Shown here: positions 29,453-48,175 of the stretch, piece by piece
Layout of the letters: the number at the start of each line of letters is the position of its first letter
Position numbering within the stretch: position 1 is the first letter of the stretch
NCBI GenBank assembly: GCA_030429345.1
Contig: JAUIFJ010000001.1
Coordinates: forward strand, 248,001 to 312,000
Source of the DNA: a bacterium
Lineage (GTDB): Bacteria; CAIWAD01
Reading direction: 5' to 3'
Length of the DNA stretch: 64,000 nt
Made by a program: the position numbers and the translations under genes
The notes under the pieces: model-generated
Told to the model about the DNA's origin: nothing
Databases searched by the model: none
Seen by the model: the letters and a program-made list of their open reading frames with translations, nothing else

Positions 29453-32400
29453 ATGAGACCTCTCCTGAACTCTGTTGCCGGCCTGCTGGCCCTGGGTGCC
29501 CTGCAGGGCGCCTGGGCGGGCAAGATCGCGGATGACCTGGAGGACCAGTTCACCCGCGTTGCCGCCGATGAATCAGTCAGCGCCCTCGTCTGCATGGCGG
29601 ACCAGTTCCCCGTCACCGAACTGGACTGGGACCTGCATCGCCGGCAGGTTTCCCGCGCCGAGCGCCATTTCGAGGTCGTGACCAGCCTGCAGGACTTCGC
29701 CCAGTCCAGCCAGGAAGACCTGGTCGACTGGCTCCAGAAGACGGATCGCCCGGGCCTGAAGGACTACCGCCCCTACTGGCTGACCAATGTGATCCGCGTG
29801 GACGCCGACGAGGCCACACTGCGCGAGATCGCCGCCCGCGCCGACGTGGGCGACGTGTACTACAACCACAAGGTGGAGAACGACCGCCCGATCATCACGC
29901 CGGTCAAGCCCGGGGAGGACGCCTCCCGCTTCATGGCCGACGGCCTGGCCGCCATCGGCGCTCCGGAAGTCTGGGCCATGGGCTACACGGGCCAGGGGAC
30001 GCTGGTGTGCAACATCGACACCGGCGTCGACGGTTCCCACAGCGCGCTGAGCTCCCGTTGGCGCGGCAACAGCCACCCGGCTTCCGAGTGCTTCCACGAC
30101 CCCGTCCAGAACGAAACCTTCCCCTACGACTCCGGCAGTCATGGCACCCATACCATGGGCACGATCACCGGCATGTCGACAACCACGGGGGATACAACCG
30201 GCGTCGCCTTCGGGGCCGAGTGGATCGCCTCCGCGACCATCGACCACCCGGGCGGCGGCGGCATCGAAGGCACCATCGCTCTGGCCCTGGAGGCCTTCGA
30301 ATGGGCGGTCGACCCCGACGAGAACCCGGGCACCATCGACGACGTGCCCGACGTGATCAGCAATTCCTGGGGCATACCCCAGGGCACCCGCGACCAGTGT
30401 GACGCGACCTACTATGCGGCCATCGACGCCTGCGAGGCCGCCGGCGCCGCGGTGGTCTTCGCCGCTGGCAACGAGGGAAGCTCCGGTCTGCGTTCGCCCT
30501 CCGCGCGCGCGGCCAGCATCTATTCCACCTTCGCTGTCGGCGCGCTGGACATCAGCGACCCGCAGAACCCCTTCGTGGCCAGCTTCTCCAGCCGCGGCCC
30601 CAGCACCTGCTCGGCGGATCCCATTCTGCAGATCAAGCCCGAGATCAGCGCCCCCGGCGTCAACACCTATTCGACGATTCCCGGCGGAGGCTACAGCAGC
30701 TCCTTCAGCGGCACTTCCATGGCCACGCCCCACGTGGCCGGCGTGATCGCTCTCATGCGCAATGCGAATCCCAACCTGGACGTGATCACGATCAAGCAGA
30801 TCATCATGGATACGGCCACGGACATCGACGCGCCGGGTGACGACAACAACACCGGCAACGGCATGATCAACGCCCACCTCTGCGTGCTGGCGGCGATCAA
30901 CGGCTACGGCAGCATCTACGGAACGGTGACCGGCGACGGTTCGCCGATTCCCGCCACGGTCTCCATCGTAGGCGGCACACAGAGCGTGCAGTGCGACGCC
31001 AACGGCGACTACAGCCTGGCCATGCCCGGCGACTCCATGTATACGCTGGAATTCAGCTACTTCGGCTACACGACGCAGACGGCCATGGTCAGCATTGTCG
31101 GCGACGCCGACGTGCAGCAGGACGCCAACCTGGCCAGCGCTCCCACGGGCACGCTGAGCGGCATTGTCTACGGACCGGACGCCATGCCGGTCCCCGGCGC
31201 CACGCTGACCGTGCTCGGCACGCCGCTGGCCCCGGTCAACAGCGACGGCTCCGGCTTCTACACCATTGACATGCCGACGGGCGCTTCGTATGACATCCAC
31301 GCCACGGCGGGCGGCCTGGGCGAGCAGACGCAGAACCTGTTCTTCGGCGGCTCGACCACGCTGGACTTCAACCTGCCCAGCGACCCGCGTTTCTCGCCCA
31401 GCGATCCCGACGCCTACGGCTATGTGATCTACGACAGCAACGACGGCGCCGGCGCTCCGCTTCATGTCTGGAACAGCATTTCCGGAACGGGCACGGCGGT
31501 CAGCCTTGGCGATGATGCCTTCAGCGCGGTGGCGGCGCCCTTCGCCTTCAACTTCTACGGGGCTGCGTTCACGGACCTCAGCATCTGCTCCAACGGCTAC
31601 GTGGTGCCCGGACCTTCCGGCTTCACCACCTACAGCAACACGGGCATTCCCGGCACCGGCACTCCCAACGGGGCGATCTACGGATTGTGGGACGACCTCA
31701 ATCCCTCCGCCGGCGGAACCGTGTATTACGAGCACCGCGCGGGCAGCGGCGAGTTCGTCGTCGAGTTCAGCCAGGTGCCCTTCTACGGCACAAGCGACCC
31801 GGTGGATTTCCAGATCATCCTGATGGACCCGGCCATGCATCCCACGGACACGGGCGACGCGCAGTGGCTGATCCACTACAACAGCGATCACCGCTCGAGC
31901 AACACGACGGGCATCGAGAATGCCGCCGGCGACGACGGCATCCAGTATGTCTACGACGGGGCCTACGATGTCCACTCCAGCGAGATCGTTCCCGGCCTGT
32001 CCCTGCTGATAACCACCTCCGTCGGTCCCTCCGGCACCCTGGAAGGCACCGTCACCGAAGCCGGCAGCGGCGATCCGATTCCCGGCGCCACGGTCAGCGT
32101 CAACGGCGCCGACCTGACGACCAACGCCCTGGGCTTCTACTCGACCGGTCTTCCGGTGGGCAACTACATGGTCGACGCGAGCGCCTTCGGCTATGATCCG
32201 GCATCCGACAATGCCAGCATCAGCGACGGTGTGACAACGACGCTGGACTTCCAGCTGAACGCGCAAGGCACGGCGACGCTTTCCGGCGTTGTTGTAGACA
32301 GCGATTCCAATCCGGTGAGCGGAGCCCTTGTGGAAGTACTGGACAGTCCATATGCGCCAGTAAACACGAACGCCAGCGGCCAGTACGCGATCGAGGTATT

Positions 32401-34780
32401 GACGGGCATCGAGTGGACCGTGCGCGCAAGCCTTGATTTCTTTGAGCAGAGCCAGAGTGTCACACTGGCAGGGCCTACGTCTCTGGATTTTGTGCTTCCC
32501 CGTGCAACTCTTTCCGGCGTCGTGAGCAACAGCTTCCTGGCGGTCCTGCCTGGAGCGACTGTCGAAGTGCTGGGTAGCCCCTATGCGCCGGTAACCACAA
32601 ACGGCCTGGGAGAGTATTCGATCGAGGTGGAAACCGGTATCAATTGGACCGTCCATGCGAGCTTCGAGGGGTTGTTCCTGAGCCAGAACATCACCCTGAA
32701 CGCCTCCGGCACTCTGGACTTCGTTCTACCCGCGGCCATCCTGAGTGGCGTGGTTACAAGCAGCTCCTCGATTCCCCTTGAAGGCGCGACGATAGAGGTC
32801 CTCAACAGCGAAATTCCTCCCGCCTCCACCAATGCGGCCGGGGAGTACAGCATGACAGTCCAGGATGGCTTTACTCTGGATGTTCACGCCAGCGCCCCCG
32901 GAGAAGGAAGTTTGACTCAGAACGTCACGATCAACGGTCCGACGACCCTTGATTTCATGCTTCCCACCGACCCAGCCTTCTCGCCCTCTCCGCCCGATGC
33001 CTACGGCTATCGCATCTTCGATTCGAACGACGGCCCGGGAGCTCCCGTATACGTGTGGGACAGCATTTCCGGAACGGGTACCGAGGTGATCCTGTCGGAC
33101 GACAGCTTCAGCGAGCAGGCCACGCCCTTCTCCTTCGATTTCTACGGCCAGACCTTCAACAGCCTGTCCGTGGGCAGCAACGGCTTCGTCGTTCCCGGCC
33201 CCAATGGCGGCACGGACTTCTCCAACGATCCCATTCCCACCGGTGTGGCACGCGGACGCGTGGCCTGCATCTGGGATGACCTGAACCCCTCCGCGGGCGG
33301 AAACATCTACGTGCAGGACAGCCCGGCGCACGGCGGCTTCGTGGTCGAGTACAACAACGTGTCCTACTATGGCGGCGGCGGCGCGGTGACATTCCAGGTC
33401 ATCCTGCTGGACCCCTCGAGCTATCCCACGCCGACCGGCGACGCGCCCTTCCTGGTGCATTACAATACCGAGGATCGCCTCAGCTCGACGATCGGCATCG
33501 AGGACCCGGCCGGCGCAGTCGGCGTGCAGTATGTCTTCGATGGCGTCTACGACGAAACCTCCAGCCCGATCGCCGGCGGCTCCATCAGCCTGCTGATGAC
33601 GACCAATCCCAACGGCATCGAGCAGGGCGAGGACACCTTCCCGCCGAGCATCGTGCACGACAACCTGCCGGATTCCGCGAATCCCGCGGGCCCCTGGCCG
33701 GTGTCGGCGACGATCACCGACTTCAGCGGCGTGGCCGGCGCGACTCTCGAGTGGCGCGTCAACGGCGGCGCCTGGGACATGGTCGTGATGATTCCCGCCG
33801 GTGACGTCTACACGGCGAACATTCCCGGCCCGCTGGTCTTCGGGGACACGGTCGAATACCGTATCACGGCCACCGACGCCAGCGAGAACAACAACGAGGG
33901 CACTTCCCCGATCTATTCCTTCATGGTGGTGGATTACGCGCAGGTATACTGCCAGCACTTCGACGACGGAACGCTGGGCGATTTCACGGTCGAGACCTAC
34001 GATCCCCTGGGCAACACCTGGACCACGGCCGACTTCGGCGGCGACCAGGGTTTCACGGCCTACATCTCCTACAGCGCCAGCGGCCAGGTGGATCACGCGG
34101 CGCTGATCTCGCCCGTCATCGACTGCAGCAACCTGGAAACCGTCGACCTGAGCTTCTGGCATTCCCTGCGCATGGGCTACACCGGCGCGGTGACCGACGC
34201 CTGGGTCCGCGGCAGCACCAACGGTGTCGACTTCGACCAGCTGATGGCCGAGTGGCACGCCGACAACGAGCCCGAGGAGATCAACATCGAGGGCATCGAG
34301 ACCTTCGACATCAGCTCCTGGGCCGCCGGTGAATCGACGGTGCAGATCATGTTCGAGTTCTATGACATCTATGACTGGTGGTGGTATGTGGACGATGTCT
34401 GCGTCTCCGGTTCCCAGGGCCAGGAACTGGTTCCGCCGGTGGTCAGCATCTCCTACAACCCGGGCGGCAACCAGGCGACCCTCAGCTGGAATCCGGTTCC
34501 GGGAGCCAATTCCTACGACGTCCTGCAGTCCACGGACGCCTACGGCGGATTTGCGCTGATCGGCAGCACCGACCAGACGACCTTCAGCCTGCCCGTCGTC
34601 GGCGAGGGTTTCCTCGTCGTTTCGTCGAGCGAGAACCTGATTACCGGCACGAGCAGCTTTGACCCCTGGCGCAACCGCGTCAAGCGGGTTGGCCAGAGCA
34701 AGGAAGATCTCTTCCTGAGCCAGCAGCCGCCGCGCCGGGAAGTGGTGGATGGAGTGGTCATCGACCACTACGTCAAGTAG
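29453..34780 (+). CDS. Large secreted subtilisin-like (S8) protease with repeated carboxypeptidase-regulatory-like domains
   Basis: A 1775-residue secreted protease; ribosome binding site GGAAGGATG just upstream. Signal peptide at 1-22 (cut near AWA-GK), inhibitor-like prodomain to ~165, then the S8 domain with Asp189 (CNIDTGVDGSH), His230 (GSHGTHTMG), the oxyanion Asn in AAGNEGSSG, and Ser422 (GTSMATPHVAGVIA). Residues ~490-1160 hold at least six carboxypeptidase-regulatory-like beta domains (GTLSGIVYGPDAMPVPGA type). A ~150-residue module starting DAYGY is present twice (~650 and ~1185). A jelly-roll domain and FnIII-like end follow. Unlike the other secreted proteins here, it lacks the NPFNP sorting domain. 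The adjacent 710- and 1027-residue antisense frames are shadows. Confidence 0.94.
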   Translation: MRPLLNSVAGLLALGALQGAWAGKIADDLEDQFTRVAADESVSALVCMADQFPVTELDWDLHRRQVSRAERHFEVVTSLQDFAQSSQEDLVDWLQKTDRPGLKDYRPYWLTNVIRVDADEATLREIAARADVGDVYYNHKVENDRPIITPVKPGEDASRFMADGLAAIGAPEVWAMGYTGQGTLVCNIDTGVDGSHSALSSRWRGNSHPASECFHDPVQNETFPYDSGSHGTHTMGTITGMSTTTGDTTGVAFGAEWIASATIDHPGGGGIEGTIALALEAFEWAVDPDENPGTIDDVPDVISNSWGIPQGTRDQCDATYYAAIDACEAAGAAVVFAAGNEGSSGLRSPSARAASIYSTFAVGALDISDPQNPFVASFSSRGPSTCSADPILQIKPEISAPGVNTYSTIPGGGYSSSFSGTSMATPHVAGVIALMRNANPNLDVITIKQIIMDTATDIDAPGDDNNTGNGMINAHLCVLAAINGYGSIYGTVTGDGSPIPATVSIVGGTQSVQCDANGDYSLAMPGDSMYTLEFSYFGYTTQTAMVSIVGDADVQQDANLASAPTGTLSGIVYGPDAMPVPGATLTVLGTPLAPVNSDGSGFYTIDMPTGASYDIHATAGGLGEQTQNLFFGGSTTLDFNLPSDPRFSPSDPDAYGYVIYDSNDGAGAPLHVWNSISGTGTAVSLGDDAFSAVAAPFAFNFYGAAFTDLSICSNGYVVPGPSGFTTYSNTGIPGTGTPNGAIYGLWDDLNPSAGGTVYYEHRAGSGEFVVEFSQVPFYGTSDPVDFQIILMDPAMHPTDTGDAQWLIHYNSDHRSSNTTGIENAAGDDGIQYVYDGAYDVHSSEIVPGLSLLITTSVGPSGTLEGTVTEAGSGDPIPGATVSVNGADLTTNALGFYSTGLPVGNYMVDASAFGYDPASDNASISDGVTTTLDFQLNAQGTATLSGVVVDSDSNPVSGALVEVLDSPYAPVNTNASGQYAIEVLTGIEWTVRASLDFFEQSQSVTLAGPTSLDFVLPRATLSGVVSNSFLAVLPGATVEVLGSPYAPVTTNGLGEYSIEVETGINWTVHASFEGLFLSQNITLNASGTLDFVLPAAILSGVVTSSSSIPLEGATIEVLNSEIPPASTNAAGEYSMTVQDGFTLDVHASAPGEGSLTQNVTINGPTTLDFMLPTDPAFSPSPPDAYGYRIFDSNDGPGAPVYVWDSISGTGTEVILSDDSFSEQATPFSFDFYGQTFNSLSVGSNGFVVPGPNGGTDFSNDPIPTGVARGRVACIWDDLNPSAGGNIYVQDSPAHGGFVVEYNNVSYYGGGGAVTFQVILLDPSSYPTPTGDAPFLVHYNTEDRLSSTIGIEDPAGAVGVQYVFDGVYDETSSPIAGGSISLLMTTNPNGIEQGEDTFPPSIVHDNLPDSANPAGPWPVSATITDFSGVAGATLEWRVNGGAWDMVVMIPAGDVYTANIPGPLVFGDTVEYRITATDASENNNEGTSPIYSFMVVDYAQVYCQHFDDGTLGDFTVETYDPLGNTWTTADFGGDQGFTAYISYSASGQVDHAALISPVIDCSNLETVDLSFWHSLRMGYTGAVTDAWVRGSTNGVDFDQLMAEWHADNEPEEINIEGIETFDISSWAAGESTVQIMFEFYDIYDWWWYVDDVCVSGSQGQELVPPVVSISYNPGGNQATLSWNPVPGANSYDVLQSTDAYGGFALIGSTDQTTFSLPVVGEGFLVVSSSENLITGTSSFDPWRNRVKRVGQSKEDLFLSQQPPRREVVDGVVIDHYVK

Positions 34781-34801
34781 TCCACGAACGAAAGTCCCGA
34801 G

Positions 34802-34836
34802 ACCCCCGGTCGCTTCGGCGGCCGGGGGTTTTTCTT
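34802..34836 (+). terminator. Terminator of the subtilisin gene
   Basis: ACCCCCGG (34802-34809) pairs with CCGGGGGT (34822-34829), with an inner stem closed by a TTCG tetraloop, followed by TTTTTCTTT. Confidence 0.9.
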
Positions 34837-35020: not shown

Positions 35021-35581
35021 ATGGCCATTGACTGGAACGACCTGATTCGCCGCCTGCGCGCCTACCTGATGAAGCACGCCTGGTCCCTGCGCGCCGATCT
35101 CGATGACCTGGAAGGCGACATTCTCGCCGAACTGGCGCAGAAGGTCGAGGAAGGCGAGGTCGAGGACCCGGCCCGCATGCTCTACAGCATCGCCCGCTTT
35201 CGTATCACGGACCGCTTGCGCAGGCGCCAGAAACGCGCCGAGCGAGAACACGATCCGGGCAGCGAGGGTTTTGATCCCGCCGGTCCGGAGGGCGAGCCCG
35301 GCGAACTGCTCTACAGCGAGAGCGAGCGATCCAGCCTGCTGGCCTTTCACATTCGGGAGTTCTTTCTGCATCGCCTCAAACAGGAGGAGTGCGCCCGCCT
35401 GGCGGAGCGCGTGCTCGAGCGCTATGACTGGCAGAGCATTGCCGACGAATCGGCCAGCGAAGGGGCGAGCGCGCAGACCTTGAAGAAGCGCTGGTCCCGC
35501 TGCCTGAACCGGCTGAAGGAAGCCTTCAGCGGAGACCTGGACGACCTGCTGTTCGGCGCCTTCGCCAGGGGGTCCGCATGA
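35021..35581 (+). CDS. Sigma-70-like (ECF-type) RNA polymerase sigma factor
   Basis: A 186-residue protein; the start is MAIDWNDLIRRL with GGAG 7 bp upstream. Residues ~25-70 resemble sigma region 2 (DLDDLEGDILAELAQKV, then ARMLYSIARFRITDRLRRRQ). Residues ~125-165 resemble the region 4 helix-turn-helix (ERYDWQSIADESA, then TLKKRWSRCLNRLKEAF). The link region is acidic. It is divergent from classic ECF factors, so the call rests on layout plus context: the next gene overlaps by ATGA and has the form of a membrane anti-sigma factor. It opens the five-gene unit that ends with the CHAT protease. Confidence 0.75.
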   Translation: MAIDWNDLIRRLRAYLMKHAWSLRADLDDLEGDILAELAQKVEEGEVEDPARMLYSIARFRITDRLRRRQKRAEREHDPGSEGFDPAGPEGEPGELLYSESERSSLLAFHIREFFLHRLKQEECARLAERVLERYDWQSIADESASEGASAQTLKKRWSRCLNRLKEAFSGDLDDLLFGAFARGSA

Positions 35582-36387
35582 ATGCCCAGGACCTGAAATG
35601 GTTCCGCTCCCGCATGGTCGCCGCACGCTGGGGTCTGCTACAGGAGGGGGACCAGGAACGATTCGACGCCCTGCTGGAGCACGCCCCCTGTCGCGCGCTC
35701 TGGGAAGTCTTCCTGGAAGAGGATGCCGACCCTGCGCAGGGCGAAGACCGCCTTCCGGATGCGCTGCTCGAGAACTGGCCCCGGCGCAGCGCGGCGTTGA
35801 AGGGCATGGCGCGCGCTCTTGTACGACAACACCTGGAGCGCAGCGAGGCCTCGCGCCGCGAGCTGGAGGCCCGGGGCTGGGAAGCAAGGCTGTATACGGC
35901 GGAAGACCTGTCCGGGCCTGCAGAGCGGGCGGCGGCGAGAACGGTCCGTCCGCGACCGCGGTGGTGGCTGGGCGGATGGGCCGGGCTGGCCACGGCGGCG
36001 GCTCTCATGCTGGCCCTGCTGAGGGTGCCCGGCGAGCTTCCGCAGCCCGGCCTTCAAAGCGAGCGGTTGCTGTTGCCGGTTCCTGTCACACGCGGCGACG
36101 ATCGCGTGGAGAGCATCCGGCTGCAGGAGGAAGGCCGCCGACTGGAGCTTCTGTTGGCGCTGCAGTGGCGGGACATGGACCGGGCACGCATCCGGCTGCT
36201 GGACGCCGGCGGAGCCCAGCTGGCCGAGCAGAACCTGGATCGCCCGGAGGACGGCGGCGTGGAGTACAGAAGAATTGCATACCGCAGCGAAACGGTGCTG
36301 CAGCCCGGACGGTATACGCTGCAGATCGTGACCAGCGGCGAGTCCGGATCGGAAAGCGAGAATCGACCTTTTGAGGTGCTGCCATGA
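35578..36387 (+). CDS. Putative membrane-bound anti-sigma-like regulator
   Basis: A 269-residue protein overlapping the sigma-like gene by ATGA. The first ~115 residues are charged and helical, without the Cys/His zinc site of zf-HC2 anti-sigma factors. One membrane helix lies at ~122-142 (WWLGGWAGLATAAALMLALL). The remaining ~125 residues are predicted beta-rich and extracytoplasmic (RIRLLDAGGAQLAEQNL, LQPGRYTLQIVTSG, FEVLP), like a small sensor or carbohydrate-binding fold. A cytoplasmic domain, one helix and an outer domain directly after a sigma gene is the layout of an anti-sigma factor; binding is inference. Its stop overlaps the next gene by ATGA. Confidence 0.6.
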   Translation: MNAQDLKWFRSRMVAARWGLLQEGDQERFDALLEHAPCRALWEVFLEEDADPAQGEDRLPDALLENWPRRSAALKGMARALVRQHLERSEASRRELEARGWEARLYTAEDLSGPAERAAARTVRPRPRWWLGGWAGLATAAALMLALLRVPGELPQPGLQSERLLLPVPVTRGDDRVESIRLQEEGRRLELLLALQWRDMDRARIRLLDAGGAQLAEQNLDRPEDGGVEYRRIAYRSETVLQPGRYTLQIVTSGESGSESENRPFEVLP

Positions 36388-37769
36388 TCTCTCTCGGCAA
36401 GCTCTTCCTGCCCTTGTTCCTCGCCCTGGCCTTGATCGTCGGCTATCTGGCCTTCGTCGATCTTCCGGCAGTGGAAATGACCGTGACCCTGCAGAACGGA
36501 AGCGAGGGCAAGCCCGAGAAGCACGCTACGATCCGGTCCGCGCTGGACGAGGCGCAGAAGGCCAAGATGGAGCATCCGCGGATCACCTTGACCGAAGCGC
36601 GCATTGCCTATGCGGAGCATGTGGTGATCTCGCCCTGGGAAAGCCTGGATTCACTCTGGCTGGGCAGCCGCTTCGAGGACGAGGAGGACCTGCCGCGGAT
36701 CACGGGAACGGTCGATTCGCTCAGCGCGGTCAACATCGACTCGGACTGGGAGGAGCCGATCCGCGTGACCCTGGAGAACCTGCTGATCACGAAGGGCAAT
36801 GCCCTGCACTCGGTCTATGTCTACGAGGCCGACCTGCAGAACCAGCAGCCCAGCGAGGTCATGGACCAGCTGCGCCGCGGGTTGAGCGTTCCCCTGGAGG
36901 ACTACACCAAGGTCTACGGGGAAGAGGGCGACCCCAAGAAGCGCCGCGAGGGTTCCGGCCTGCGCATCAGCAACGGCAAGGTCCTGCTGGATCACGTGGT
37001 CATCGAGGACAACAACGGCCATGCCGGCAAGGGCAGCGAAGACGACGAGGAGATGTACTACGGCGGCGGCATCTTCATCCAGAAGAGCGAGGTCAGCAGC
37101 GACCGGCTGAGCCTGCGCGGCAACCGCGCCAACATGGGCGGGGCCTTCTACATGGAAAGCTCGGCCTGCACCTTCGGCCTGCGCTGGGTGGAGAACAACG
37201 GGGTGCTGGATCACAGCGAGTCCGGGAAGAGGGACCAGTACGGCGCGATCGCGCTGCTGGACATGGAATCGAGGCTCACCCTTCAGCAGGGAGCCCTGTG
37301 GGACAACGGCCGTTTCCGCGAGGGTCGCTTCGAGAGCGAAGACGCCGAAGGTCTTGCGCGCATGCTGATCCTGAATCACGACGGCCTGTTCCACGTGCTC
37401 GACTCGGAGCTCGCGATCGAGCAGTGCAGCATTGGAACGGAACTGGAAAGCGACGCGGCGGACACGGATCTGGATCCGATGGGCTATCACATGTACATGG
37501 ACGCAACGAGCACGGTCCAGCTGGAGAAAAGCCTGCTGGCGGATCCGGATGGACCCTTTCTCTGCAAGCCCCAGGCGGGCGGCGAACTGTTCCGTTCGCA
37601 GTCCACCCTGAGCAACGACAAGAGCGGCTTCGAAAGCGGCCACGAGCCGACCGTCTACAGCAGCGTCAAGCTGAACGAGAACAAGTCCGCCGACTCCTGG
37701 ACCTCGGACGACGGCAGCACAGTGGCCGGCGAGGGCGAGGGAGCCTCTTTCGTGGAGGAGACTCCTTGA
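36384..37769 (+). CDS. Exported parallel beta-helix protein, paralogue 1
   Basis: A 461-residue protein with an N-terminal membrane or signal segment (LFLPLFLALALIVGYLAF), coupled by ATGA to the anti-sigma-like gene. An N-terminal DUF-like beta region has LDSLWLGSRFED. The centre is a right-handed beta-helix with GSGLRISNGKVLLDHVVIE, an acidic GSEDDEEMYYGGG loop, GNRANMGGAFYMESS and GALWDNGRF. The C-terminus is loosely repetitive. It shares long runs of identity with the next gene. GGA(F) and N-x-A repeats recall Pmp-type outer-membrane proteins and pectate-lyase-like folds, but no catalytic residues are seen. Role unknown; likely surface or periplasmic. Confidence 0.75.
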   Translation: MISLGKLFLPLFLALALIVGYLAFVDLPAVEMTVTLQNGSEGKPEKHATIRSALDEAQKAKMEHPRITLTEARIAYAEHVVISPWESLDSLWLGSRFEDEEDLPRITGTVDSLSAVNIDSDWEEPIRVTLENLLITKGNALHSVYVYEADLQNQQPSEVMDQLRRGLSVPLEDYTKVYGEEGDPKKRREGSGLRISNGKVLLDHVVIEDNNGHAGKGSEDDEEMYYGGGIFIQKSEVSSDRLSLRGNRANMGGAFYMESSACTFGLRWVENNGVLDHSESGKRDQYGAIALLDMESRLTLQQGALWDNGRFREGRFESEDAEGLARMLILNHDGLFHVLDSELAIEQCSIGTELESDAADTDLDPMGYHMYMDATSTVQLEKSLLADPDGPFLCKPQAGGELFRSQSTLSNDKSGFESGHEPTVYSSVKLNENKSADSWTSDDGSTVAGEGEGASFVEETP

Positions 37770-37821
37770 GGATCTCGCCGCTTTCAATGGCAAACACGAT
37801 CACACAACCCTGCGAGGATAG

Positions 37822-39204
37822 ATGATTCGCTTCTACAGCCTGTTGGCGCTCATCCTGGTCTTCTCGTATACAGAGCTTCACAGCCAGGACTCCGGGTGCA
37901 AGGAAGCCAAAGCGCATGCTGTGACCTTGCAGAATGGCCTGGGTGGCGAGTGCACGCCCTTTCCGGACATCGGCAGCGCTCTCAAGGCCGCAGGGAAACA
38001 GGGACTGGCTCATCCCCGGATCATCCTCAACAGGAAGGGCCACTTCTACAAGGCGCGAGTTCGTGTAGTCCCCTATCCACAGCTGGATTCGCTGTGGCTG
38101 GGAAGCGAGTACTCCGTGTATACTGACCGACCCGTCATTACGGGGGATGGCGACAGCAGTGCAGTCAACCTCTTTTCGGAGACAAGCGAAAAAGTGCGCG
38201 TAACCCTGAAGAACCTTCGGATTCAAAAGGGAAATGCCGCCACGCCCTTGTACGTCGTGCAGGCGGATCTTGAGGGCCTGGTGAAAACCCCCGTTTCGGC
38301 CATGCTGGATCGTGGCCTGAGTGTTTCATTGGATCATTTCATTCAGCGCTACGACAGCTCGACAATTCGTGGCACACTTCGTCGGGAGGGATCCGGGCTG
38401 CGCATCAGCAACGCCATCGTCTTCCTGGATTCCGTCGCACTCGAGGACAACAACGGTCATGCAGGAAAAGGCAGCGAGGATGACGAGGAGATGTACTACG
38501 GCGGCGGCATGTTCATCGAGAACAGCATCGTAGAAAGCAGGGCCCTGAGGTTGAAAGGGAACCGGGCCAACCAGGGAGGAGCCTTCTGCATCGAGAACTC
38601 GACGGTCGACCTGGACCTGACATGGGTGTGCGGCAACGGCATTCTGGATCACAGCGGCAACGGCAAAAGGGATCAATACGGTTCCATCGGCCTGCTGACG
38701 AATGGCTCCACAGTCACCCTGCGGGGAGGCGCTTTGTGGAACAATGGCCGCTTTCCTGAGCACGAAAGCGTGCAGGCGAAGGAAGACTCGTGTGCCTCCA
38801 GTCATATCCAAAACTATGACGGCTACTTCGAGGTCCGGAACTCGGATCTGACTCTCATCCAATGCAGCATCGGCACGGAGAACCCGCTTGGCGTTCCTGC
38901 AGGGGATCCCTTGCCCTACAAGATGAACAGGAACGGGACAGGCATGGTTCAGCTTGAACGCTGCCTGCTCTGGAGCCCGGACGAGATCTTCGTCTGCAAG
39001 AGCGACCAGGAGAAGTCCGGCTATGCGGCCACGGAATCCGTCGGCAACGCGGATGGCGGGTTCCAGCAGCAAAGTGAACCCTTAGCCATTGTTTCCGTCA
39101 AATTGGCGAAGAACAAGGGAGTTGTTTCCTACACCCCGCCTTCCGGTTCGCCGATCAAACCCGCGAAGCCGATCGGCGCCACCTTCAAGATCTCTGCGAA
39201 CTAG
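37822..39204 (+). CDS. Exported parallel beta-helix protein, paralogue 2
   Basis: A 460-residue tandem paralogue of the preceding gene, 52 bp downstream. It has a better signal peptide (MIRFYSLLALILVFSYTELHS-Q). The shared core is nearly unchanged: REGSGLRISNAIVFLDS, EDNNGHAGKGSEDDEEMYY, GNRANQGGAFCIENS, LDHSGNGKRDQYG and GALWNNGRF. Flanks have diverged, it contains extra Cys residues, and its base composition looks less GC-rich than paralogue 1, so the duplication is old or one copy was acquired. The acidic GSEDDEEMYYGGG loop is the best conserved feature of the pair. Function unknown. Confidence 0.75.
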   Translation: MIRFYSLLALILVFSYTELHSQDSGCKEAKAHAVTLQNGLGGECTPFPDIGSALKAAGKQGLAHPRIILNRKGHFYKARVRVVPYPQLDSLWLGSEYSVYTDRPVITGDGDSSAVNLFSETSEKVRVTLKNLRIQKGNAATPLYVVQADLEGLVKTPVSAMLDRGLSVSLDHFIQRYDSSTIRGTLRREGSGLRISNAIVFLDSVALEDNNGHAGKGSEDDEEMYYGGGMFIENSIVESRALRLKGNRANQGGAFCIENSTVDLDLTWVCGNGILDHSGNGKRDQYGSIGLLTNGSTVTLRGGALWNNGRFPEHESVQAKEDSCASSHIQNYDGYFEVRNSDLTLIQCSIGTENPLGVPAGDPLPYKMNRNGTGMVQLERCLLWSPDEIFVCKSDQEKSGYAATESVGNADGGFQQQSEPLAIVSVKLAKNKGVVSYTPPSGSPIKPAKPIGATFKISAN

Positions 39205-39213
39205 TCCAGAACC

Positions 39214-41868
39214 TTGCAAGCGCGTATACGACATCTGGTTGGAACCGGTAGCTGCCTGTGGTCCCTCCGACTCTTCCAGTGGCTTGTGCTGTGCGCGTGT
39301 TGCGGCTCGTCCGCCTTCGCAGAGCCCCTTCCGCCGGACAGCCTTTTCGTGCGCGGAACGGCCTGGCAGCGGCAGGGAGTGGGCGATTCGGCCGCCGTGT
39401 ATTACGAAGCCTTCCTGCATGCGACACGCGACTCCGTGCCGACCCTTCGCCGAGGACGCGCTCTCGCCAATCTTGGTCTTCTAGACCGCCGTGCGGGACG
39501 GACGGAGTCCGCCATGCGCCACTTCGGCTCGGCGAAGGAGATCTTTGTGTCCACATCGCCGGAACGGGTACCCCGGCTGCTGCTGGACATGGCCCGCCTG
39601 GAAGAGCGCCGCCTGAACCCCTGGGCCGCCGACAGCCTGCTTCTGCTGGCCGACTCCCTGGCCGTACTCCACGACCCGCCCCGCCGAGTGCCGATCCGGC
39701 TCGAAGCGGTCGAGTTGGCGATCTCGATGGGCCATGCGGGGCGGGCCGAGCGCCTGCTCCATCCCCTGCTGAACAGGGAAACGGCTTCCGCGGATGCCGC
39801 CCGCATATACATCGCGCAGGGAAACCTGCACAAGCTGAAGCGGGATTTCGAAGGCGTGCGCGAATCCTGCCGCCGGGCACTGTCGCACGCCGACGCCAGC
39901 GGGAGCAGTCGGCTGGTGGCCCTGTGCTACAACAATCTCGGGACCCTGGAGATGGCCGTCGGCAGCCCCTTCGAGCGGCAGTTGGCCTTCTTCGACAGCA
40001 GCCTGGCGGTCATCCGGCTCGACGAGGCGCCGAATACCTGGCTGCTCTCGCAGCAGAACCGCGGCATCGTGCTCGACAACATGGGCCGCCACGAGGAGGC
40101 GGCGCGGGTATTCAGCGAGGTGCTCGAAGAGTCGATCCGCCTGGGGCGGGAAGACTTCCGCATTGCCTGCCTGAAGGATCACGGCGATCTCCATGCACAC
40201 CAGGGCAAATACGAGCTGGCCATCTCGACCTACCGGGAGGCGGCCTCGAGGGCAGACAGCATCGGGAACTGGGACCTGCTCGAGCGCGCGCTGGAGGCGA
40301 TGGGCGACAGCCGCTTCGCACAGGGACGGATCGAGGAGGCGCGTGATACCTGGGCGCTGGCCCAGGAGGTGATCGAGAACGTGAGACGGGACATCCAGCT
40401 GGATCACAGCCGTCGCGTGTTTCTCGAGTCCCGTCGCAGCATCGCGGAGAAACGCATCCGGGCCCAGCTTTCCCTGCAGGAAGAGGGACAGGCCCTGGAG
40501 ACCCTGGACGGCATGAAGGCCCGCACCTTGCTGGACCAGATGGAAGGGGCCTGGCTCTTGCTGGAGCAGGAGCTTCCCCCGCAGGATGCCGCCGAGCGGC
40601 AGGCGCTGGAGCGCGCACTGGGCCACCGGCATCGAGAGCTTCTTCGTGCCGAGGTGCAGGGGGAAACAGCTGCCGAAGAGCGGCGACTCTTCCGGGAGCG
40701 ATTCGAGCGCGCCCGGCGCGATCTGCAGGCCTTTGACCTGGAGCTCTTCGAGAGGCAGCCGGGGCTCGGCCGCCGCGCCGGCGCTTTTCCCGGACAGAGT
40801 CTGCGCGAAATGGCCCGTCTGCTGCAGGAAAACCAGCTCGCCGTGAGCTGGCTGGTGGAGGAGGAGCGGATCACGGCCTTCTGCCTGCGATCCAGGGGGC
40901 GGTCCACACCGGAGCTGCGGGTTGTCGAGATCGGCATCTCGCGGGAGGAACTGCGTTCGCAGATGCAGGAAATGCGGCAGGACTGGATCGACCAGTCCAC
41001 GCTGCCCGCCGTCCTGCGCTCCCCTCCCGCGCCGGGTTCCGCGGAAGCCCGCCTCTTCGATCGACTACTCCTGCCCGTCCTGGAACAGGCGGAGGGCGTG
41101 GATCACCTGCTGATGATCCCCGACCGCGAACTGCACGACATGCCTTTCCACGCCCTCTATGACTGTACGACAGATAGTCGTGTAGCACAGAATCTGCAGT
41201 TGTCGACGGCCCCGGGCTTCCGTGCTCTCGCCGAGTTGCGATTGACCGGAACCCGCGGGCGCGAGGACCTGCTCGTGCTGGGGGCCGGCGCCGGAGCACA
41301 GACACGGGAGATGGGTCTTCTTCCGGGAGTGGGCAGGGAGCTGGAGGCGATCCGCCAAGCCTACGGTCGTCGCGCCCGTTTCCTGCGGGACAGCCTGGCC
41401 ACCGAAACGGCGCTGCGACGGCAGGCGGACGAGTATGGCGTCCTGCACTTCGCCGCCCACTGCCGCATCGATCCCGAGCGCCCCGCCCATTCTGCGATCC
41501 TGCTGCAGGCCGACAGCGAGCACGACGGCCTGCTGGAGGCCCGCGAGATCGCGCGCTTCGAGCTCGACGCCGACCTGGCGGTGCTCAGCGCCTGCAACAC
41601 GCACTCCGGCCCACTTGCGGGAGCGGAGGGCGTGCTGGGCCTGAGCCGCGCCTTCTTCAGCGCGCGCGTACCGACGGTGGTTGCATCACGCTGGCCCGTC
41701 GACGACCGGATCACGGCGCGCTTCATGGAATCGTTCTACACCCGCCTGGCGGCCGGACACCGTCCGCTCGCCGCCCTGCACCTGGCCCAGCGGGAGATGC
41801 TGGGTCGTGATCCATTGCAAAGCCCCCTGGAGTGGGGCGGCTTCGTGATCCTCGGGGACTGCGACTAG
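39214..41868 (+). CDS. Exported TPR-CHAT (caspase-like) protease
   Basis: An 884-residue protein that starts at a TTG 9 bp after the beta-helix gene; an ATG start is not available near the signal peptide. A hydrophobic segment ending SSAFA suggests export. Residues ~60-400 are tetratricopeptide repeats (ALANLGLLDRRAGRTESAM, LCYNNLGTLEMAVG, NRGIVLDNMGRHEEAARVF). A coiled region leads to the C-terminal CHAT domain, a caspase-like peptidase: His749 in LHFAAHCRI and Cys794 in LSACNTHSG form the dyad, followed by GAEGVLGLSRAFF and WPVDDR. TPR-CHAT is also found in CRISPR-linked Craspase, but that protein is cytosolic and there is no CRISPR here. It ends the sigma/anti-sigma/beta-helix unit. Confidence 0.92.
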   Translation: MQARIRHLVGTGSCLWSLRLFQWLVLCACCGSSAFAEPLPPDSLFVRGTAWQRQGVGDSAAVYYEAFLHATRDSVPTLRRGRALANLGLLDRRAGRTESAMRHFGSAKEIFVSTSPERVPRLLLDMARLEERRLNPWAADSLLLLADSLAVLHDPPRRVPIRLEAVELAISMGHAGRAERLLHPLLNRETASADAARIYIAQGNLHKLKRDFEGVRESCRRALSHADASGSSRLVALCYNNLGTLEMAVGSPFERQLAFFDSSLAVIRLDEAPNTWLLSQQNRGIVLDNMGRHEEAARVFSEVLEESIRLGREDFRIACLKDHGDLHAHQGKYELAISTYREAASRADSIGNWDLLERALEAMGDSRFAQGRIEEARDTWALAQEVIENVRRDIQLDHSRRVFLESRRSIAEKRIRAQLSLQEEGQALETLDGMKARTLLDQMEGAWLLLEQELPPQDAAERQALERALGHRHRELLRAEVQGETAAEERRLFRERFERARRDLQAFDLELFERQPGLGRRAGAFPGQSLREMARLLQENQLAVSWLVEEERITAFCLRSRGRSTPELRVVEIGISREELRSQMQEMRQDWIDQSTLPAVLRSPPAPGSAEARLFDRLLLPVLEQAEGVDHLLMIPDRELHDMPFHALYDCTTDSRVAQNLQLSTAPGFRALAELRLTGTRGREDLLVLGAGAGAQTREMGLLPGVGRELEAIRQAYGRRARFLRDSLATETALRRQADEYGVLHFAAHCRIDPERPAHSAILLQADSEHDGLLEAREIARFELDADLAVLSACNTHSGPLAGAEGVLGLSRAFFSARVPTVVASRWPVDDRITARFMESFYTRLAAGHRPLAALHLAQREMLGRDPLQSPLEWGGFVILGDCD

Positions 41869-41891: not shown

Positions 41892-41916
41892 GCGCCCGCC
41901 GAAACGGGCGCCCTTT
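41892..41916. terminator. Terminator after the CHAT gene
   Basis: GCGCCCG (41892-41898) pairs with CGGGCGC (41905-41911), 6-nt loop, then CCTTTT. It lies between two convergent genes and closes the CHAT unit. Confidence 0.85.
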
Positions 41917-42210: not shown

Positions 42211-42485
42211 GATGTCCTCCGTTGAATAGTGGTTTCACCCACCATGTCGGAGGAATGGCCGCAGCGTGACCGTACTCCCGCGCTCCGCACGATTTTGCAC
42301 AGCTTGAACAGACGGCCTGCAGTTATGCTTCTGCCAAGATCATGCAAAACAGATGTTTGCACTTTCTGTCGCCTCTGGCATCATGCTTGCTCTACCATAA
42401 GAAGCAAACGGTGAAATCCAACCAGAACAGCTTTGTCAGGCCGGGAGAGTTCTCTTCCGTCCGCGCTGTTTTTCAGGGGGAATCC

Positions 42486-44072
42486 ATGAAGAAACTGATG
42501 AGCTTTGTCGCCCTTGGCGGCCTGCTGCTCGGATCGCTGGCGATGACGGCCCAGGCCGTTCCCAGCTACACGGTCAGCAACGGCACGGATGTGATCAATG
42601 TCCATGTCGATCCCTACTTCCTCGATCCCGGGGACGATGTAGTCGATTTCTACAGCTACGGCAATCCTGTCGGCAGTTCGGCCAACACGGGATTCGAGCA
42701 GTTCGATACGGCCCTGATCTACCTGACCCTGGATGACCAGGGCAACTACGGCCTGGTCACGGTCTTCGATCGACCCGGCGGTGGCGGCGGCAACGTGAGC
42801 CTGACGTATACGGGCCTGCCGATCGGTTCCAGTCTCGCCGTCAACGACGATCCCGGGGACCCCCACAACTTCAATCCGGCCACCGGTGCGGGGAACGCGT
42901 CCTACAACTGGGTCAGCTGCTGCACCGACGGATCGGCCTGGCAGCTGCCCGATTCGAGCAACTTCGAGATCACGTTGAACTACACCTTCAACGCCGGTCT
43001 GGACACCCTGCGCTTCATCACCTTCGACCCCTGCAACCAGGACGAGCTGCTCTTCTTCGACCTGGATGTGACACAGCCTGTGATCCTGCGCGCCCAGGAC
43101 GGCGGCCAGGAGCTGCCGGACTGCAACAACAACGGCGCGGCCGACTTCTGCGACATCTCGTCGGGCGTCAGCCAGGACTGCAACGGCAACGGCATTCCCG
43201 ACGAATGCGAGAACGACTGCAACGGCAACGGCCTGGACGACCAGTGCGACATCGACACGGGCTTCAGCATGGACTGCAACGGCAACGGCATTCCCGACGA
43301 GTGTGAGACGGATTGCAACGGCAACGGCGTGCCAGACGACTGCGACATTGCCGGAGGCGCCAGCGCCGACTGCAACGGCAACGGCATTCCGGACGAGTGC
43401 GAGGCCGATTGCAACAACAACGGCGTGGCCGACGACTGCGACATCGACACCGGTTTCAGCCAGGACTGCAACGGCAATGGCATTCCGGACGAGTGCGAGG
43501 CCGACTGCGACAACGACGGCATCCCCGACGACTGCGAAGCCGACTGCGACGGCAACGGCACACCCGACGACTGTGAGTTCGAGGACTGCAACCAGAACGG
43601 CACGCACGACATGTGCGACATCCTGGACGACACGAGCCTTGACTGCGACGCCAACGGCCTCATCGACAGCTGCGAGGACGGCTACGTCGACTGCAACGGC
43701 AACGGCACCTGGGACATGTGCGACATCGCCTCCGGCAGCAGCTTGGATGACAACGGCAACGGCATTCCGGACGAGTGCGAAGGAACGACCGACACGGAAG
43801 ACCAGCCGCGCGAGTTCGGCCTGAAGGGCAACTTCCCGAACCCCTTCAATCCGACTACGCTGATCGAGTTCAGCCTGGCCGAGACGGCCCCGGCCCGCCT
43901 GGCGGTATACTCCGTCGACGGCGCCCTGGTGCGCACCTTGGTCGATGGCCTGACTCCCGCCGGCCTGCATCGCATCAGCTTCGATGCCGGCGAACTGGCC
44001 AGCGGTGTCTACATCTACCGCCTGCAGAGCGAAGGCCGCGTAGCCAGCGGCAAGATGCTCCTGGTCCGCTAG
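42486..44072 (+). CDS. Secreted protein with DCNGNGIPDEC calcium-type repeats and FlgD-like sorting domain
   Basis: A 528-residue secreted protein starting at MKKLMSFVALGG (ribosome binding site GGGGGAATCC); signal peptide to about residue 24 (MTAQA-VP). Residues ~25-205 are a beta domain. Residues ~214-433 are a ladder of about 16 units (DNA 43126-43785) of the form DCNGNGIPDEC or DCNNNGVADDC, each with two Cys and D-x-N-x-D/N oxygen ligands, like thrombospondin type 3/dockerin-type calcium repeats. The C-terminus has NPFNPTTLIEFSL and SGVYIYRL (sorting domain). Likely a surface-exposed calcium-stiffened stalk. A 17-bp perfect terminator follows. Confidence 0.88.
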   Translation: MKKLMSFVALGGLLLGSLAMTAQAVPSYTVSNGTDVINVHVDPYFLDPGDDVVDFYSYGNPVGSSANTGFEQFDTALIYLTLDDQGNYGLVTVFDRPGGGGGNVSLTYTGLPIGSSLAVNDDPGDPHNFNPATGAGNASYNWVSCCTDGSAWQLPDSSNFEITLNYTFNAGLDTLRFITFDPCNQDELLFFDLDVTQPVILRAQDGGQELPDCNNNGAADFCDISSGVSQDCNGNGIPDECENDCNGNGLDDQCDIDTGFSMDCNGNGIPDECETDCNGNGVPDDCDIAGGASADCNGNGIPDECEADCNNNGVADDCDIDTGFSQDCNGNGIPDECEADCDNDGIPDDCEADCDGNGTPDDCEFEDCNQNGTHDMCDILDDTSLDCDANGLIDSCEDGYVDCNGNGTWDMCDIASGSSLDDNGNGIPDECEGTTDTEDQPREFGLKGNFPNPFNPTTLIEFSLAETAPARLAVYSVDGALVRTLVDGLTPAGLHRISFDAGELASGVYIYRLQSEGRVASGKMLLVR

Positions 44073-47836: not shown

Positions 47837-48007
47837 GAGATCCTCGCTGCTGGCTGCTTTGCGGGCAATATACACAGCCTGCGGACCCGGAATGAGTGCT
47901 GCGGATGCGAGCCGGAGTTGCCACAGGTCAAGGAATTGCCAATTCTTTCCCGCTACACTAGCTTCCGCCCTGAAGCACGAGCTTCGACGCCGCGTTGCGG
48001 CGAACCG
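47837..48007. other. Divergent promoter region between DUF2797 and the rib operon
   Basis: 171 bp without a gene. It should hold the promoters for the minus-strand operon and for the riboswitch-led riboflavin operon. A TTGCCA...ATTCTTT stretch at ~47935 is less GC-rich, but I cannot assign a box. Confidence 0.4.
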
Positions 48008-48147
48008 GTTCTCGGGGTGGGTGAAATTCCCAATCGGCGGTGAAAGCCCGCGACTCCCGGACAGCTCTAGCGGCAAGCCGCTTGGCCGTCTGGGACTGAT
48101 CCTGTGAAACTCAGGGGCCGACGGTGACAGTCCGGATGGTAGAGAAC
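48008..48147 (+). promoter_or_regulatory. FMN riboswitch (RFN element)
   Basis: P1 is GTTCTC (48008-48013) with GAGAAC (48142-48147). Conserved RFN blocks are in order: GGGTGAAATTCCC, GGCGGTGAAAGCCCGCGAC, CTGTGAAACTCAGG, GGCCGACGGTGACAGTCCGG and ATGGTAGAGAACGG. It senses FMN and lies 138 bp before ribD, so riboflavin genes should be shut off when FMN is plentiful. Confidence 0.97.
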
Positions 48148-48175
48148 GGGTAGAACATGGATTCTGATTGAAAGA

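Follow-up and report, generated by a model that had tools for sequence, protein, structure and literature searches.

Why should a caspase-like protease with a signal-like N-terminus be encoded in an operon that opens with a sigma factor? Bacteria commonly encode CHAT proteases, most of which still lack an explanation. The window analysed here (the whole stretch of 64,000 nucleotides) contains five consecutive genes on the plus strand, spanning positions 35021-41868, which encode a sigma factor, an anti-sigma factor, two beta-helix-like proteins and a TPR-CHAT protease. With a probability of about one half, we consider that this operon is a signalling module, working without CRISPR, in which the CHAT protein would act on the anti-sigma factor, presumably by proteolysis.

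The operon and its products

All five genes were found at the positions, and with the overlaps, given by the first-pass annotation. The first of them (35021..35581, plus strand; Shine-Dalgarno-like GGAG upstream of its ATG) encodes a 186-aa protein which had been described as sigma-70-like, and which proved to be a real, if divergent, ECF-type sigma factor: TIGR02937 was matched over the whole length (residues 9-168, E=1.6e-6, 28 bits, below the curated cut-off) and PF04542 at E=0.002. The protein aligns with the 54 other CHAT-linked sigma factors described below, TIGR02937 being matched in all 55, and its relatives score higher than it does.

The anti-sigma gene (35578..36387, plus strand) lies directly 3' of the sigma gene and shares a 4-nt ATGA overlap with it. 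The Pfam search with its product (P0002) gave no match, and the N-terminal HxxxCxxC zinc motif is absent, its ligands having been lost. A profile built from P0002 and its own-genome paralogue detected homologues in three other genomes, and two relatives (loci L026 and L027) match zf-HC2 (PF13490, E=4.8e-12 and 1.9e-7) and keep both zf-HC2 motifs in tandem. Judged by its sequence, P0002 is a degenerate homologue of the zf-HC2 (ZAS) anti-sigma factors, in which the fold has been kept and the zinc ligands lost. Hydropathy places one transmembrane (TM) helix at about residues 130-150; the AF2 model (mean pLDDT 62) comprises a helical N-domain, the TM helix and a 7-strand C-terminal domain, a beta-sandwich whose Foldseek matches are generic beta-sandwich domains. 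The position 3' of the sigma gene and the predicted cytoplasmic N-domain followed by a TM helix are those of membrane-type ZAS anti-sigma factors, so that P0002, as modelled, has the anatomy of a membrane anti-sigma factor and is the predicted inhibitor of its sigma. The one-helix, anti-sigma-like regulator proposed by the annotation is borne out by this single TM helix and by the zf-HC2-bearing relatives.

The last gene (39214..41868, plus strand) starts 9 bp after the stop codon of the second beta-helix gene and encodes TPRs together with a domain that is beyond doubt a CHAT protease (PF12770, E=1.1e-58); the best PDB matches of the CHAT profile are the CHAT chains of Craspase Csx29 (E=1.6e-14). 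The annotated dyad falls exactly on H749 and C794 and is intact, and the His and Cys are invariant across 18 aligned CHATs. Possible starts are limited to the TTG at 39214, which is without a good Shine-Dalgarno sequence, and a GTG 24 codons on. The export call depends on the TTG start: read from there, the N-terminus has an n-region, an h-region and an AFA|EP site, and the protein looks exported, as the annotation had claimed.

Terminator-like hairpins are present on either side of the operon. A GC-rich stem of 15 pairs with a T tail (34799..34832, plus strand) separates it from an upstream subtilase gene, and a second hairpin (41892..41911, plus strand) stands 3' of the operon, where a terminator had been claimed. 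The scan as a whole showed no excess of hairpins (4, compared with 4.1 in shuffled sequences), but the first of the two is the long GC-rich stem.

Sigma and anti-sigma genes beside CHAT genes

The genome encodes four CHATs and contains a second example of the trio. The operon sigma and anti-sigma have exactly one close own-genome relative each, and these two are paired on contig C50 (locus L008) beside a second TPR-CHAT, with which the pair is convergent. This CHAT is cytosolic, without a signal, and the anti-sigma is without a TM helix, indicating that the topology was switched in both partners. All three outside genomes reached by the anti-sigma profile (G275, G340 and G102) carry CHATs: in G275 and G340 the homologous pair adjoins secreted TPR-CHATs; in G102 a CHAT followed by a sigma gene stands at one contig end and the anti-sigma starts another contig, and these contig ends suggest the same sigma/anti-sigma/CHAT arrangement. 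A scan of genome contigs with the anti-sigma alignment returned one record, a Ca. Eisenbacteria genome (G275), and searching the small phyla to which G275 and G340 belong gave two weak matches and nothing more. The two remaining CHATs of the own genome have no sigma gene nearby: an exported 2613-aa protein (L007:2201-10042, contig C47) with a TolB-type beta-propeller-like N-terminus and long TPR arrays, and a cytosolic protein (L009:3918-9314, contig C25) encoded directly 3' of a 921-aa secreted Ig-like-repeat protein.

The survey was anchored on CHAT. Of 386 genomes searched for PF12770, 111 were positive; 120 CHAT neighbourhoods were taken, chosen by position only, and sigma factors were detected with an ECF profile built for this analysis. 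An ECF sigma gene lies within 1.5 kb in 41 of the 119 loci for which CHAT was the sole criterion of choice; at a distance of up to 4.5 kb the count is 58 of 130, in a set that includes loci found via the sigma/anti-sigma pair. The density of sigma genes was 0.124-0.132 per kb at less than 1.5 kb from CHAT, 0.004 at 4-5.5 kb and 0 at 5.5-7 kb, compared with a genome background of 0.007 per kb (397 in 58 Mb, 15 such genomes). About two thirds of the CHAT loci are without a nearby sigma. The sigma-linked loci fall into 28 families, and the gene after the sigma, in most cases one for an anti-sigma, encodes zf-HC2 in 23 of 44 cases and a Ser/Thr kinase instead in two. At L091 and L141 (both G176), an apparent Ser/Thr kinase with a TM helix follows the CHAT-linked sigma, replacing the zf-HC2 anti-sigma.

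The unit claimed by the first-pass annotation survives this search for conserved order in part: the sigma/anti-sigma/CHAT core recurs in the 28 families, and the five-gene set is not conserved. Recurrence of the trio by about a third of the sampled bacterial CHAT genes suggests a widespread CRISPR-free relative of the Craspase switch. In one locus (L108:5408-9007, genome G138) a natural fusion unites a pair of zf-HC2 motifs with a TM helix, TPRs and CHAT in a single chain, encoded directly after an ECF sigma gene. A mirror-tree test of the sigma and CHAT trees showed no significant congruence (Mantel r=0.16), indicating either that the trios were reassorted or that the trees are saturated. A CHAT-linked ORF on the minus strand of another locus (L166:6590-9826) has a nucleotidyl cyclase-like N-terminus (VTILFTDIKGST) and adjoins a sigma and a soluble anti-sigma.

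CHATs with signal peptides go with TM anti-sigma factors, and cytosolic CHATs with soluble ones. Topology was called by simple rules, an automatic signal-peptide rule (4 false positives among 376 internal blocks) and a hydropathy rule for TM helices. The combinations of CHAT and anti-sigma were secreted with TM in 21 loci, secreted with soluble in 3, cytosolic with TM in 4 and cytosolic with soluble in 13 (p=5.6e-5; median p=0.0024 with one locus per family), p-values that are somewhat optimistic because the signal rule was revised once an initial outcome was in view. The several discordant calls, most of them borderline by eye, were kept as called. Three families (f1, f67 and f175) include both of the concordant topology types.

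Proposed circuit and alternatives

Three known systems have a comparable logic. In Craspase, the CHAT protease Csx29 cleaves Csx30, which binds and inhibits the ECF sigma factor CASP-sigma (PMC10028731); like the operon, this set consists of a TPR-CHAT protease, a sigma inhibitor and an ECF sigma. The operon differs in having no Cas7-11 (gRAMP) gene among its flanking genes, a CHAT that appears exported, an anti-sigma that descends from the zf-HC2 type and has a single TM helix and a beta-sandwich, and a sigma that fails the type III-E CASP-sigma model (NF041236, E=0.06, 13.3 bits against a cut-off of 100). CalpL/CalpT/CalpS, from type III CRISPR, has the logic of a protease, an anti-sigma and an ECF sigma (PMC11417357), which the operon would share if its CHAT cleaves the anti-sigma; there, however, the protease is a cytoplasmic one of the Lon type, which bears a SAVED domain and is switched on by cA4. 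RseA/DegS/RpoE and RsiW/SigW, in which membrane anti-sigma factors undergo regulated proteolysis, likewise combine an ECF sigma, a one-TM anti-sigma and a protease on the outer side, the last of these presumed for the operon, whose protease would be a TPR caspase-like CHAT (clan CD) encoded in the operon itself, and not a PDZ serine protease. A sigma/anti-sigma/CHAT module outside CRISPR was described in no paper that we found in the open-access literature.

An action of the CHAT on the anti-sigma is consistent with the recurrent trio, with the agreement in topology, with the fusion at L108 and with retention of the dyad by 52 of the 55 sigma-linked CHATs (alignment count), and the Craspase sigma inhibitor, being itself the CHAT substrate, points to a signalling circuit. 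In such a circuit the ECF sigma would be held by the membrane anti-sigma, with the helical N-domain in the cytoplasm and the beta-sandwich outside. The exported TPR-CHAT, which we assume to be activated when its TPRs bind a ligand or partner, would then act on the anti-sigma domain outside the cytoplasm, probably through cleavage of the site-1 type, and the released sigma may transcribe its own operon and a regulon including the two envelope beta-helix proteins. Signalling would thus run from CHAT through the anti-sigma to the sigma.

The main alternative, possible if rather doubtful, is that the CHAT and the beta-helix proteins are regulon outputs only, the anti-sigma ectodomain sensing an envelope signal and the CHAT hitting other envelope targets. 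A single operon with the sigma gene first is the common layout of autoregulated ECF operons, some modules are flanked by beta-helix or other secreted proteins, and matching compartments are also consistent with outputs of this kind; but the L108 fusion joins CHAT to the anti-sigma itself, co-transcription is not constant (the CHAT is convergent or divergent to the sigma/anti-sigma pair in L008, L026 and L028), and the Craspase precedent favours a CHAT that acts on the sigma inhibitor. It is improbable that the TPR-CHAT serves as a non-proteolytic, ligand-binding partner of the anti-sigma ectodomain, an RseB-like sensor: TPRs are protein-binding modules and three linked CHATs do depart from the dyad (His to Tyr in two, L078 and L095), but all the others retain it. 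Very improbable is the idea, put forward in the first-pass annotation, of an exported effector that serves in death, defence or a self/non-self system, since, although Craspase and the gasdermin-linked systems do contain CHAT domains, PADLOC gave no match that was accepted (best 13 bits), the neighbours scanned include no gasdermin or Cas gene, and the linkage found, in 28 families, is to an ECF sigma and its anti-sigma.

A wider reading can be put forward tentatively: sigma/anti-sigma/TPR-CHAT may be an ancient and widespread CRISPR-free module, mostly transmembrane, from which type III-E captured Csx29-Csx30-CASP-sigma. Anti-sigma proteases, and not death effectors, would then make up a large part of the TPR-CHATs that are uncharacterised in bacteria. 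Control of sigma factors by about a third of CHATs would give these a direct, testable function and account for the sigma factor and inhibitor of Craspase, and a caspase-like protease would join the short list of signalling systems that target anti-sigma factors.

Beta-helix proteins and neighbouring genes

The genes between the anti-sigma and the CHAT encode beta-helix-like proteins A (P0003, 36384..37769, plus strand), with an N-terminal membrane anchor or uncleaved signal, and B (P0004, 37822..39204, plus strand), with a signal peptide. The gene of A overlaps the anti-sigma gene by another 4-nt ATGA, and that of B has a Shine-Dalgarno-like GAGGAT upstream. They had been annotated as beta-helix paralogues; the paralogy is clear (47% identity), and the right-handed beta-helix fold is probable, not proven. 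A profile of the two sequences matches proteins of two other genomes whose beta-helix is evident from their sequence (E=4e-5 and 8e-5), Pfam gave no match for A or B, and the AF2 model of a beta-helix-like protein is of low confidence (pLDDT 43); among its top Foldseek matches, pectin methylesterases and pectate lyases, which are parallel beta-helices, predominate, with E-values of at least 0.02 throughout.

Beta-helix neighbours were found in only three of the linked loci (the window, L028 and L050), and those of L028 and L050 belong to other families, with no significant match to A or B in hhalign. At L028 (genome G340) a secreted PF13229 beta-helix gene shares one base with the start of the CHAT gene and adjoins a divergent sigma/anti-sigma pair, so that the gene classes are those of the operon and the beta-helix sequence is unrelated. 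Relatives of A and B were limited to the two weak profile matches in the 385 other genomes, and a sequence search of 60 relatives returned the own genome alone. The beta-helix proteins were rejected as part of the core module, A and B being confined to this genome within the set searched; we treat their genes as lineage-specific additions, either cargo or regulon members.

The operon is flanked by the subtilase gene and by the gene of a Ca-repeat/FlgD_ig protein. The former (29453-34780, plus strand), just upstream, encodes a secreted protein of 1775 aa with several carboxypeptidase-regulatory-like repeats; the latter (42342-44072, plus strand), downstream, has an exported product that contains DCNGNGIPDEC-type repeats and, at its C-terminus, a weak Por/FlgD-like domain. 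Further along the window, an FMN riboswitch (RF00050, 93.8 bits) is located at 48004-48151 on the plus strand.
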